Assembly: GCF_026184235.1 (NCBI RefSeq)
Contig: NZ_CP110806.1
Span: 3,224,001 to 3,288,000 of the forward strand
Source of the DNA: Cellulomonas sp. S1-8
Lineage (GTDB): Bacteria; Actinomycetota; Actinomycetes; Actinomycetales; Cellulomonadaceae
Reading direction: 5' to 3'
DNA length: 64,000 nucleotides
The notes beneath the pieces were generated by a model that saw nothing but the letters and a program-made list of their open reading frames with translations, was not told where the DNA came from and searched no databases. The position numbers and the translations under genes are program-made. Below are positions 2,861-64,000 of this stretch, piece by piece. The first letter of the stretch is position 1. Each line of letters begins with the position of its first letter.

Positions 2861-2937
2861 TGGTAGCGGGAGCGGGATTCGAACCCGCGACACCACGATT
2901 ATGAGCCGTGTGCTCTAACCACCTGAGCTATCCCGCC
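2861..2937 (-). tRNA. tRNA-Met (anticodon CAT), elongator type
   Basis: A complete cloverleaf can be folded. The acceptor stem is GGCGGGA/TCCCGCT, the anticodon loop CTCATAA, the T arm contains GGTTCGAATCC, and the 3' CCA is encoded. It lacks the C1-A72 mismatch and the GGG/CCC anticodon stem of initiator tRNA. A tilS-modified Ile2 tRNA also reads CAT, but the overall sequence fits elongator Met better. Confidence 0.9.
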
Positions 2938-2992
2938 ACAGCGGTCGCCCGGGCCGATCGTCCGAGGACGACCGACCCGTGGCACACCACAG

Positions 2993-3065
2993 AGCCCCGA
3001 AAGGGAATCGAACCCTTGACCTTCTCCTTACCATGGAGACGCTCTGCCGACTGAGCTATCGGGGC
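2993..3065 (-). tRNA. tRNA-Thr (anticodon GGT)
   Basis: The cloverleaf has acceptor stem GCCCCGA/TCGGGGC, anticodon stem TCTCC/GGAGA with loop ATGGTAA, and a T arm with GGTTCGATTCC. CCA is not encoded. It is transcribed ahead of tRNA-Met and rpmG. Confidence 0.93.
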
Positions 3066-3075
3066 AGCGCGGACC

Positions 3076-3105
3076 AGAGTACACGCGCTGCGGGGTGCCC
3101 GTGAA
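3076..3105 (-). promoter_or_regulatory. Promoter of the tRNA-Thr/tRNA-Met/rpmG unit
   Basis: On the minus strand, -10 TACTCT (3081-3076) and -35-like TTCACG (3105-3100) are spaced 18 bp apart. Transcription would start about 4 nt before the tRNA-Thr 5' end, as expected for a stable-RNA promoter. Confidence 0.5.
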
Positions 3106-3213
3106 ATCGTCTCCTGCGAGGGCTCCGACCGCCGGCCGTCGAGGCCCGGGCGCCCGCTCCCGAAGCGTTTCATCTCGTCGCGGTCCCCGACGCGCCGTGC
3201 CACGATCCGGCCC

Positions 3214-3645
3214 ATGCGTCCCACCCCCCGTCACCGCGGCCGCGTCGCCGCCGCCGTCCTGCTGTCCGTCGCCGCCCTGCTCTCGACCGCCGCGTGCAGC
3301 GGCGGTGACGAGGGCGTCGACCCCTCCGCCGCCGACTGGCCCACCGCCGTCACCCCCGCCGACACCGACGGCGACTTCTGGGTCGTGTGGACCGCGATCG
3401 CCGAGACCGTCGACGACCCCGCGCTCGCCACCGAGATCGACCGCCTCGCCGAGCAGGGCTACGAGGTCGAGACCTGGTCCCCCGGCTGCCAGGACGGTGC
3501 GCAGGAGCAGCTCGGCGGCCTCACGGGCTACGCGGAGCCGGTCGGCGTCGGCGTCGCGTTCGCCTCGGAGGAGGACGCCGGCATCTTCGACACCCGCGAC
3601 GAGGGCACCACGGTCTCGGTCACCACAGGCGCCTGGACCTGCTGA
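3214..3645 (+). CDS. Small secreted lipoprotein of unknown function
   Basis: The 143-residue product has a positively charged N-terminus, a hydrophobic core at about residues 11-26 and a lipobox STAAC with the acylated cysteine at 28. The mature part is acidic and has two further cysteines, one in SPGCQD and one at the very C-terminus, which could form a disulfide. It contains EQGYEVETW and a TTVSVTTGAW strand, reminiscent of a small alpha/beta fold. I recognise no family. It is monocistronic and convergent with tRNA-Tyr. Confidence 0.8.
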   Translation: MRPTPRHRGRVAAAVLLSVAALLSTAACSGGDEGVDPSAADWPTAVTPADTDGDFWVVWTAIAETVDDPALATEIDRLAEQGYEVETWSPGCQDGAQEQLGGLTGYAEPVGVGVAFASEEDAGIFDTRDEGTTVSVTTGAWTC

Positions 3646-3666
3646 CCGCTCCCCACCCCACCCACC

Positions 3667-3744
3667 TCCCGCGAGTGCGGGGAAACGGCTCGAGTGCGGG
3701 GGTCGTATCCCCCGCACTCGACGTGTTTCCCCCGCACTCGCGGG
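3667..3744. repeat. Nested palindromic element (REP-like)
   Basis: The 10-mer CGAGTGCGGG and its reverse complement occur four times in mirror order. The outer arms are at 3667-3686 and 3724-3744; the inner arms at 3689-3702 and 3709-3721 flank a 6-nt loop. The whole can fold as one long interrupted stem between the lipoprotein stop and the tRNA-Tyr terminator. It may be a repetitive extragenic palindrome or part of a bidirectional terminator. Confidence 0.65.
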
Positions 3745-3759
3745 ACGTGGGGGCGTGCA

Positions 3760-3793
3760 GAAGGGGGCGTCCTCCGTGGAGGACGCCCCCTTC
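3760..3793 (-). terminator. Strong hairpin terminator of tRNA-Tyr
   Basis: The perfect 16-bp stem runs GAAGGGGGCGTCCTCC at 3760-3775 and its complement at 3778-3793, with a 2-nt spacer, just 6 bp past the tRNA-Tyr 3' end. No U-tract follows, as is usual in actinobacteria. It could also stop the convergent lipoprotein transcript. Confidence 0.75.
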
Positions 3794-3799
3794 GGTGCG

Positions 3800-3881
3800 T
3801 GGCGGGTGAGGGATTCGAACCCCCGTAGGCGTTGCCAGCTGATTTACAGTCAGCCCCCTTTGGCCACTCGGGTAACCCGCC
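3800..3881 (-). tRNA. tRNA-Tyr (anticodon GTA)
   Basis: This type II tRNA of 82 nt has acceptor GGCGGGT/ACCCGCC, anticodon loop CTGTAAA containing GTA, a long variable arm as expected for bacterial Tyr, T arm GGTTCGAATCC and discriminator A. CCA is not encoded. Confidence 0.93.
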
Positions 3882-49657: not shown

Positions 49658-50313
49658 TCAGGCCCCGGGGACCGGTGACGCGCCGGGGAGCAGCGCCGCG
49701 GCCGGCTCGCTGTAGCCGACACCGACGAGGGTGTCCCCTCGAACCGCAGGGTCGTCAGGGAGGCGAGCGCGCACTGCCGGCGGCGCGGGTCGTGCCACAG
49801 CCGGCGGTTCTCGAGCGCGAGGCGCGTGACCCAGATCGGCAGCTGGTGGCTGACGAGGACCGCCTCGTGGCCGCGCGCGGCGATGCGGGCCGACTCGACC
49901 GCGGCGAGCACCCGGTCGACCTGCTCGGCGTACGCCTCGCCCCACGACGGCCGGATCGGGTTGCGCAGGTGCGGCCAGTGCCCGGGGTGGCGCAGGGAGC
50001 CGTCGCCGACGCCGAACGTCATGCCCTGGAAGTGGTTGGCGGCCTCGATGATCCGGTCGTCCGTGCCGACCGCGAGCCCGAAGGCGGCGGCGATCGGTGC
50101 CGCCGTCTCCTGCGCCCGCTGCAGGGGGGACGCGGTCACGACCACCACGTCGCGCCGGGGCGCGTCGTGGTCGCCCGCGAGCGTGCCCGCGACGAGCTCG
50201 GCCATCTGCTGCCCGCGCTCGGACAGCCGGTAGCCGGGGAGCCTGCCGTAGAGCACGCCGTCGGGGTTGTGGACCTCACCGTGCCGCAGCAGGTGGACCG
50301 TGGTGGCGACCAT
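49658..50313 (-). CDS. Histidine phosphatase (phosphoglycerate-mutase-like; frame break)
   Basis: The phosphohistidine motif is LLRHGEVHNP near residue 8, GRLPGYRLSERG follows, TASPLQRAQETA carries the conserved Arg, and VLVSHQLPIW the second His. The frame breaks at the C run 49735-49738; one added base turns LRFEG into DTLVGVGYSEPAAALL and the natural stop at 49658, 218 residues in all. It leads the ccs operon, as the homologue does in mycobacteria (remembered as Rv0525). Substrate unknown. Confidence 0.85.
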
Positions 50314-57592: not shown

Positions 57593-58966
57593 ATGGCAGC
57601 GGGGCCCGGCCTGCTGTGGAGCGCGCGCGAGTACGTCGACCGGTCGGCCCGGCAGTCCCCCGCACGACTCGCGCTCGGCGTCTTCGCCCTCGTCATCGCC
57701 GTCATCACCGTGCTGCTGTCCGCACCGTGGGCGACGGCCGGTGGCGAGCGCGCGCCGCTCGTCGACGCCCTGTTCACCGCGACGTCCGCGACCACCGTCA
57801 CGGGGCTGGTCGTCGTGCCCACCGGGGAGTACTGGTCCGCGTGGGGCCTGGTGGTCATCCTCGTGGCGATCAAGATCGGCGGGCTGGGCGTCATGACGCT
57901 CGCGTCGCTGCTCGGCATGGCCGTGTCGCGGCGCATCGGCCTGACGCAGCGTCTGCTGGTGTCGTCCGAGACCAAGGTGACCCGCCTGGGCGAGGTGGGG
58001 TCGCTGGTCCGCACCGTCATCGTGACGTCGACGGTCCTGGAGGTCGCGATCGCCCTGGTGCTGTTCCCGCGGCTGCTCGTGCACGGGGAGTCCACGGGGA
58101 CGGCCGCGTGGCACGCGGTGTTCTACTCCGTCTCGGCGTTCAACAACGCGGGCTTCGTGCCGACCCCCGAGGGGCTGGACCCGTTCGTCTCCGACTGGTG
58201 GATGCTGCTGCCGATCATCATCGGCGTGTTCATCGGGTCCCTGGGCTTCCCCGTCATCCTCAACGTCGCCAACCACCTGCGCGAGCCGCGCCGCTGGAGC
58301 CTGCACTCCAAGCTGACGATCACGACGAGCCTCGCCCTGGTGCTGTTCGGGTCCGTGGTGGTCGCGGCGTTCGAGTGGACCAACCCGGACACGTTCCGGC
58401 CGCTCGACGCCCCGGGGACCATCCTCGCGTCGCTGTTCGCGGGCGTCATGCCCCGCTCGGGCGGGTTCTCGACGGTCGACGTGGGGCAGATGCACGAGGG
58501 CACGTGGCTCCTGCTCGACGCCCTGATGTTCGTCGGCGGGGGCTCGGCGTCGACCGCGGGCGGCATCAAGGTCACCACCCTGGCCGTCATGCTGCTCGCG
58601 ATCGTCGCCGAGGGCCGCGGCGACCGTGACGTCGAGGCGTTCGGCCGGCGCATCCCGCGCGAGACGCTGCAGGTCGCCATCGCCGTCAGCTTCGTCTCCG
58701 CGACGATCGTGCTGATCGCCACCCTCCTGCTGCTGGCCATCACCGGGCTGACGCTCGACCGCGTGCTCTTCGAGGTCATCTCGGCGTTCGCGACGGCCGG
58801 GCTGTCGACCGGCATCACCGCCGACCTGCCGACACCGGCGAAGTACGTGCTCGTCGTGCTCATGTTCATCGGCCGGACCGGCACCATGACGCTTGCGGCG
58901 GCGCTCGCGCTGCGCAACCGTCGACGTGTCATCCGCTACCCGGAGGAGAGGCCCATCGTTGGCTGA
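57593..58966 (+). CDS. trkH: TrkH/KtrB-type potassium channel subunit
   Basis: The 457-residue membrane protein has four MPM repeats with selectivity-filter segments TSATTVTGL, SAFNNAGF, PRSGGFSTVD and FATAGLSTGI, whose central glycines line the K+ pore, plus GGGSASTAGGIKVTT. GGGAGG sits 6-11 bp before ATG 57593. It needs the cytoplasmic TrkA/KtrA subunit, encoded by the overlapping next gene, for gating. Confidence 0.94.
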   Translation: MAAGPGLLWSAREYVDRSARQSPARLALGVFALVIAVITVLLSAPWATAGGERAPLVDALFTATSATTVTGLVVVPTGEYWSAWGLVVILVAIKIGGLGVMTLASLLGMAVSRRIGLTQRLLVSSETKVTRLGEVGSLVRTVIVTSTVLEVAIALVLFPRLLVHGESTGTAAWHAVFYSVSAFNNAGFVPTPEGLDPFVSDWWMLLPIIIGVFIGSLGFPVILNVANHLREPRRWSLHSKLTITTSLALVLFGSVVVAAFEWTNPDTFRPLDAPGTILASLFAGVMPRSGGFSTVDVGQMHEGTWLLLDALMFVGGGSASTAGGIKVTTLAVMLLAIVAEGRGDRDVEAFGRRIPRETLQVAIAVSFVSATIVLIATLLLLAITGLTLDRVLFEVISAFATAGLSTGITADLPTPAKYVLVVLMFIGRTGTMTLAAALALRNRRRVIRYPEERPIVG

Positions 58967-59631
58967 GAGCCTGCGTTCAGGCGGCGGCGAGCCGCGCAAC
59001 GCACCCCGCACCCCGAAGAAGGACTCGGGCGTCCTGGTCATCGGCCTCGGGCGGTTCGGGTCCGCCATCGCCTCGACCCTCGACCGCCTCGGCCAGGACG
59101 TCCTGGCCGTCGAGCGCAACCCCGAGCTGGTCGCCCAGTGGTCCGGGCGCATCCCGCTGGTCGAGGCCGACGCGGTGAACCCCGACGCGCTCGAGCAGCT
59201 GGGCGCACGCGAGTTCCCCGTCGCGGTCGTCGGCGTCGGGTCGTACCTCGAGGCGTCCGTGCTGATCACGGGCAACCTGGTCGACATCGGTGTCCCGCAG
59301 ATCTGGGCCAAGGCGATCAGCTCCGAGCACGCGCGCATCCTGCAGCGCATCGGCGCGCACCACGTCGTCCTGCCCGAGGCCGACGCCGGGTCGCGCGTCG
59401 CGCACCTCGTCAGCGGCAAGATGCTCGACTACATCGAGGTCGAGGACGGGTTCACGGTCGTGAAGATGCGGCCCCGAAGGAGGCGCAGGGGTTCACCCTC
59501 GCGCAGTCCAAGGTGCGCGAGCGGTACGGGGTCACGATCATCGGGGTGAAGTCACCCGGGATCGACTTCCAGTACGCCACACCCGAGACGCGCATCTCGG
59601 CCAACGACCTCATCATCGTCGGCGGTCACGC
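58959..59631 (+). CDS. trkA: TrkA/KtrA-type potassium regulatory subunit (frame break; C-terminus cut by junction)
   Basis: TTG 58959 with GGAGGAG upstream overlaps trkH by 8 bp. The RCK domain has the NAD/nucleotide loop [32 protein letters not shown] and [17 protein letters not shown]. The frame breaks at 59470-59471; one added G joins [17 protein letters not shown]. The C-terminal TrkA_C domain follows, but after [10 protein letters not shown] homology stops at about 59631, where rpoC sequence from the other strand begins. About ten terminal residues are missing. See the junction entry. Confidence 0.85.
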
Positions 59632-59635
59632 GCCG
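59626..59635. other. Chimeric junction joining trkA to rpoC
   Basis: Left of this point the plus strand encodes the end of TrkA; right of it the minus strand encodes RpoC. Both conserved proteins lose homology within the same few bases, with a shared GCG at the join. A stop created by trkA sequence (TGA at 59628-59626) ends the rpoC frame. Misassembly or a rearrangement breakpoint. Confidence 0.85.
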
Positions 59636-60714
59636 AGGTCGAGCAGCCGCTTGAGGCGGTTGTTCCGGTTGATGACGCGGCGGTACAGGTCGTTCAGGTC
59701 CGACGTGGCGAAGCGGCCACCGTCGAGCTGGACCATCGGGCGCAGGTCCGGCGGGATGACCGGGACCGCGTCCAGGACCATGCCCGTCGGCGAGTTGTTC
59801 GTCGTGAGGAACGCGTTGACGACCTTGAGCCGCTTAAGGGCACGGGTCTTGCGCTGCCCCTTGCCGCTGCGGATGGTCTCGCGCAGCGAGTCACCCTCGG
59901 CCACCAGGTCGAACGCCTCGAGACGCTTCTGGATCGCCGCGGCGCCCATCGAGCCCTCGAAGTAGTTGCCGTAGCGGTCCTGCAGCGCGCGATACAGCAT
60001 CTCGTCGCCCTCGAGGTCCGCGACCTTGAGGTTCTTGAACCGGTCCCAGACCTGCTCGAGGCGGTCGAGCTCGGCGTCCGACCGCTTGCGCAGCTGGGCC
60101 ATCTCGCGCTCGGCGGAGTCGCGCACCTTGCGGCGCGCGTCGGCCTTGGCACCCTCGGCCTCGAGCTCGGCCAGGTCGGCCTCGAGCTTGGTGGCGCGGG
60201 TGTTGATGTCGTTGTCGCGCCGGTCCGAGATCTCCTTCTTCTCCAGGTCGATCTCGTTCTGGAGGTTCGGGAGGTCCTCCTGGCGACCGTCCACGTCGAC
60301 CCACGTGATCATGTAGGCCGCGAAGTAGATGACCTTCTCCAGGTCCTTCGGCGCCAGGTCGAGCAGGTAGCCCAGCCGCGACGGCACACCCTTGAAGAAC
60401 CAGATGTGCGTGACGGGGGCGGCCAGCTCGATGTGGCCCATGCGCTCACGGCGCACCTTCGAGCGCGTCACCTCGACGCCGCAGCGCTCGCAGATGATGC
60501 CCTTGAAGCGCACGCGCTTGTACTTGCCGCAGTAGCACTCCCAGTCCCGGGTGGGGCCGAAGATCTTCTCGCAGAAGAGCCCGTCCTTCTCCGGCTTGAG
60601 GGTGCGGTAGTTGATGGTCTCGGGCTTCTTCACCTCGCCGTGCGACCAGGCACGGATGTCGTCGGCCGAGGCAAGGCCGATGCGCAGCTCGTCGAAGACG
60701 TTGACGTCGAGCAA
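59626..60714 (-). CDS. rpoC: RNA polymerase beta' subunit, N-terminal fragment only
   Basis: TTG 60714, with AGGA upstream, opens [18 protein letters not shown]. The first 362 residues match actinobacterial RpoC: the zinc finger [20 protein letters not shown], the [19 protein letters not shown] clamp region, a coiled coil (about 150-230) and [17 protein letters not shown]. The frame then ends at LLDLGA, where the family continues for about 930 more residues. The catalytic NADFDGD motif is absent, so this fragment cannot be a working subunit. Confidence 0.95.
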
Positions 60715-60736
60715 GGGGGTCCTACTTCCTTCGCTT

Positions 60737-60755
60737 GCCGGTTTCGAGAACCGGC
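60737..60755. other. Short hairpin between rpoB and rpoC
   Basis: GCCGGTT (60737-60743) and AACCGGC (60749-60755) form a 7-bp stem with a 5-nt loop in the 116-bp rpoB-rpoC spacer. It might be an RNA processing site or an attenuator. Confidence 0.4.
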
Positions 60756-60830
60756 GGAACGGAAATCGTGCTGAGGGGTGCGGGCACCCGGTCCGGCTTC
60801 GCGCGAGCGTGGCCGGCCCGGGGCTCGACG

Positions 60831-64000
<3,170 letters not shown>

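Follow-up and report, generated by a model that had tools for sequence, protein, structure and literature searches.

The question raised by this locus is why two conserved genes on opposite strands, trkA (plus) and rpoC (minus), should each end abruptly at the same point. The locus lies in a 64,000-nucleotide stretch of Cellulomonas sp. S1-8 (GCF_026184235.1, contig NZ_CP110806.1; hereafter the window), corresponding to positions 3,224,001-3,288,000 of a genome assembled as a single contig (4,504,702 bp). A first-pass annotation, made from the letters alone, had reported that the two genes cut each other off near 59,630, and proposed misassembly as the simplest explanation and an inversion breakpoint as the alternative. 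We located the joint at window positions 59,629-59,631, where both genes are truncated and where three bases (CGC) are common to the two parent sequences. As detailed below, the joint is very probably an assembly artefact, in which the overlapping ends of a circular contig were left untrimmed and the record was then rotated to dnaA.

Intact versions of both genes are present in the same genome (the names trkA, trkH, rpoB, rpoC and dnaA come from the first-pass annotation and from our reading of the proteins). The truncated trkA (window 58,959-59,631, plus strand, with a start codon picked by reading) follows the intact copy (genome 3,371,989-3,372,693 plus the stop; 235 codons; C-terminal end ...GGHADLLERFASRP before the stop) up to the residues GGHA and then reads into antisense rpoC, losing the 10 last residues. 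Near window position 59,472 it also lacks one base relative to the intact copy, which breaks the frame. The 5' part of rpoC (window 59,629-60,717, minus strand) covers 363 codons, including one residue before the TTG start, and is identical to the intact gene over these 363 residues (362 from the TTG start) before it stops. Intact rpoC is found at about genome positions 3191825-3195694 and encodes 1,290 residues counting the one before the TTG start (~1,289 without it). The motif NADFDGD, which begins at residue 534 in the 1,290-residue count, is missing from the window rpoC. The annotated truncations, a TrkA without its last ten or so residues and an RpoC that ends after 362 of about 1,290 residues without NADFDGD, are thus borne out. 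The annotation had also argued that the remainder of rpoC had to lie elsewhere, and a genome search places it ~89 kb upstream.

Self-comparison of genome positions 3184001-3384000 (200 kb around the joint) revealed one repeat, in direct orientation, with two adjacent copies that are 99.888% identical and meet at a single joint. Copy A extends over genome positions 3,194,609-3,283,631 (89,023 bp) and copy B over 3,283,629-3,372,662 (89,034 bp). The whole window lies within this repeat, with the right part of copy A at window 1-59,631 and the left part of copy B at window 59,629-64,000. The first-pass annotation mentioned neither this repeat nor the one-base difference in trkA. Intact rpoC straddles the left edge of copy A, and intact trkA straddles the right edge of copy B.

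The region was then set against relatives at the nucleotide level, with loose scoring that produced many false matches at 57-59% identity, and only long collinear alignments were used. Both outer edges of the repeat are native. On the left, genome positions 3,184,636-3,199,589 are collinear in one piece with positions 2,934,392-2,949,485 of relative G003, and on the right, 3,367,308-3,375,903 are collinear in one piece with 3,025,300-3,033,741 of the same relative. Among the alignments listed for a second relative, G046, the right outer edge is crossed too. The joint breaks the collinearity with G003, with one alignment ending at 3,283,631 and the other beginning at 3,283,629. The rpoC piece and trkA are likewise arranged in G003, where ~86 kb separates them. 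The rpoC piece has a single occurrence in each of the 14 single-contig relatives of the genus to which this search was confined (of 59 relatives, the other 45 lay outside it) and two occurrences in the present genome. Contamination, estimated as marker duplication, is 2.65 here versus a rounded value of 1 in the 14 single-contig relatives; it reaches 6 and 7 in two of the 45 others.

The record begins 100 bases 5' of dnaA, and its end-to-start seam aligns unbroken with the corresponding seams of G003 and G046. Since the record starts at dnaA with a native seam, the raw ends of a rotated contig should sit inside it. We inspected the sequence around the joint and found that a shared stretch of at least 3 bp, the length observed here, occurs in 9% of 200,000 random joins drawn from the region. 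No recombination substrate was detected within 500 bases of the breakpoints, where the longest shared words measure 11 (direct) and 12 (inverted) bases, and 293 random pairs average 12.1 and 11.9, respectively. By its sequence, the joint looks as expected of raw contig ends, with arbitrary positions in two genes and shared sequence at the level of chance.

Copies A and B differ at 68 places, comprising 65 insertions or deletions (indels) and three substitutions. The indels are mostly single-base (48 of 65), purely G/C (61) and located in runs of at least four identical bases (46), and all but one (64) have lengths that are not multiples of three. When scored against G003 and G046, 23 of the 65 indels favour B (A wrong) and 18 favour A (B wrong), while 21 gave no decision and three had no match; the scoring used 300-base pieces, in which indels fewer than 150 bases apart sway each other's verdict, and the 41 verdicts include 12 weak ones. 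True divergence consists, as a rule, mostly of substitutions. The similar number of mistakes in A and B fits two noisy readings, not one good copy accompanied by a decaying one. The differences between the copies point to two independent noisy readings of one sequence rather than to evolution.

Local quality was assessed by counting frame changes in 163 reference genes that are conserved in both G003 and G046, for which 192 placements were obtained in 580 kb. Frame changes were identified in 8 of the 42 placements in copy A and 4 of the 41 in copy B, versus 2 of 75 in the left flank and 1 of 34 in the right flank. Expressed by length, there are 12 in 101 kb within the repeat and three in 125 kb outside it (p 0.008). 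The trkA frameshift near window position 59,472 is absent from this list of conserved-gene frame changes. Judged from these genes, the repeated block is poorer in quality than its flanks. Two frame changes in conserved genes were also seen less than 20 kb to the left of copy A (genome 3176389-3177305 and 3180646-3181180), as possible consensus errors beyond the repeat.

The explanation that we favour is the untrimmed overlap of a circular contig. A long-read assembler would have gone round the circular, Cellulomonas-like chromosome and continued beyond the point at which it began, so that both ends of the linear contig represented one 89-kb stretch, with a noisy consensus of its own at each end. 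With the overlap left untrimmed, the ends would have been abutted and the record rotated to the dnaA start, and the point where these raw ends meet, with one lying in trkA and the other in rpoC, would now be mid-record at window 59,629-59,631. This agrees with what was found: one long sequence is directly repeated to either side of a single joint, error-like differences are present in both copies, and the outer edges (compared with G003) and the end-to-start seam (compared with G003 and G046) are native, so that the raw ends would be placed at the joint. We infer both the long-read technology and the assembly step that failed. The annotated cut between trkA and rpoC correctly renders a record that is most likely faulty, and it is probably not a biological feature.

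Overlaps of this kind have been described. In the sections of PMC4699355 drawn on here, near-identical overlapping ends are given as a fault of long-read contigs assembled from circular molecules, and a figure legend calls such overlapping ends low-quality. An excerpt of PMC6966772 describes start-end overlap as duplicated sequence, with a contiguity above 100%. The present repeat resembles the overlapping ends of the Circlator paper, as far as these parts of the two sources describe them (PMC4699355, PMC6966772), in having the same sequence at both contig ends, small error-like differences and a joint at arbitrary gene positions. It differs from them in an overlap of 89 kb, or a contiguity of ~102%, and in a record that starts at dnaA, which would mask the overlap as an internal tandem repeat.

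Some observations weigh against an untrimmed overlap. The main ones are its length of 89 kb and the missing error gradient: the 68 differences show an even spread (Kolmogorov-Smirnov p 0.61; Mann-Whitney p 0.65) and do not become denser toward the presumed raw contig ends. A rising error density near raw contig ends is frequent, although not necessary. In addition, the higher frame-change rate and the raised contamination would also be expected from a real duplication that short reads could not polish.

Such a duplication is the strongest of the rival explanations, albeit an unlikely one. It would be a genuine and very recent tandem duplication of 89 kb in the sequenced culture, formed at the 3-bp microhomology and carrying rpoB together with the truncated ends of rpoC and trkA. 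The true copies would still be identical, and the differences between A and B would be unpolished sequencing errors. Consistent with this, the joint does have 3 bp of shared sequence, and the cell would lose nothing, as rpoC and trkA are still present in intact form at the outer edges. A fresh duplication would likewise raise marker duplication, and it would confuse polishing, as short reads could not be placed uniquely in either copy. There is also a precedent in Pseudomonas fluorescens SBW25, where, according to the portion of PMC7661048 used here, lineages acquired tandem duplications of 45-290 kb in a matter of days. The likeness to that system, as presented there, is a head-to-tail repeat of tens of kb that has a single novel joint and leaves the genes at its outer edges intact; the difference is that the copies here differ by error-like indels, the breakpoints are without a recombination substrate and the repeat is known from assembled sequence alone (PMC7661048). 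Against a fresh duplication, the same portion of the source describes large duplications as typically unstable (PMC7661048).

Further points count against a fresh duplication. No recombination substrate was seen at the breakpoints, and the 3-bp overlap is one that 9% of random joins reach. A duplication joint usually falls at a homologous repeat or another recombination substrate, although this is not required and microhomology joints occur. We would also expect an assembler to separate near-identical copies of 89 kb only with reads longer than 89 kb, since shorter reads would collapse them.

Less probable still is the concatenation, during scaffolding, of two independent contigs that overlap by 89 kb and were not merged, with the chromosome closed elsewhere. 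The repeat, its error pattern and its native outer edges would look no different under this scenario. However, it needs a second clean closure elsewhere, whereas the rotation of a single contig with a continuous dnaA seam already predicts one interior raw joint.

The remaining two explanations were rejected. An old duplication with diverged copies, one of them decaying, would account for frame-breaking differences in both copies, but three substitutions against 65 indels in 89 kb, and apparent mistakes spread over both copies (23 in A and 18 in B of the 41 judged), are unlike divergence or one-sided decay. An inversion breakpoint or a chimaeric join of unrelated regions is suggested by the local view only, in which two opposite-strand genes lose homology at one point, and is refuted by the direct orientation of the block over 89 kb and by outer edges that both keep the gene order of G003. 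The first-pass annotation was therefore right about the kind of event, misassembly being the best explanation, while the fault itself consists of a single 89-kb block repeated head to tail and not of a chimaeric join of unrelated places; its alternative, the inversion breakpoint, falls. The refutation that the annotation offered for misassembly, spanning reads at normal depth plus a complete rpoC elsewhere, is only half-useful, because an untrimmed contig overlap gives a complete rpoC elsewhere too.

Adjoining the truncated trkA in copy A is an open reading frame for a trkH-like potassium transporter (window 57,593-58,966, plus strand; name and start by reading). On the other side of the joint, in copy B, rpoB (window 60,831-63,998, minus strand; an open reading frame named by reading) has its 5' end outside the window. 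In a further single-contig relative (G008, C1 981792-982458), the TrkA match falls into two overlapping pieces, a possible frameshift or sequencing error. The loci retained from a search with intact TrkA (80 of 265 confirmed) all belonged to relatives, with Cellulomonas iranensis NBRC 101100 highest among them at 96%.

The repeated block also contains four tRNA genes (Met, Thr, Tyr and Thr; window 2861-3881 and 50026-50113). Adjoining the tRNA-Tyr gene, we detected a G+C-rich dispersed palindromic element with the core GAGTGCGGGG..CCCCGCACTC (window 3661-3793, genome 3227661-3227793), which has a counterpart in copy B. The exact core pattern was identified at 11 sites in the genome, two of which are this element and its counterpart in copy B, and a reversed control pattern gave 0. 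Folded as DNA, window 3640-3800 has a z-score of -12.1, for a stretch that includes a second hairpin. Six of the 65 indels between A and B are located in the palindromic element, which is thus also a hotspot of sequencing errors.

The joint of trkA and rpoC matters as a warning about data quality. Taken at face value, the record would give Cellulomonas sp. S1-8 a duplicate rpoB, additional but truncated versions of rpoC and trkA, and extra tRNA genes, with inflated tRNA counts since all four tRNA genes above lie inside the repeat. It would also give ~89 kb of false paralogues with frameshifts. Claims about gene dosage, paralogues or pseudogenes that derive from genome positions 3.19-3.37 Mb are to be discounted for now. 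If the untrimmed overlap is the true explanation, the actual genome would be nearer 4.416 Mb (4,504,702 minus 89,023).
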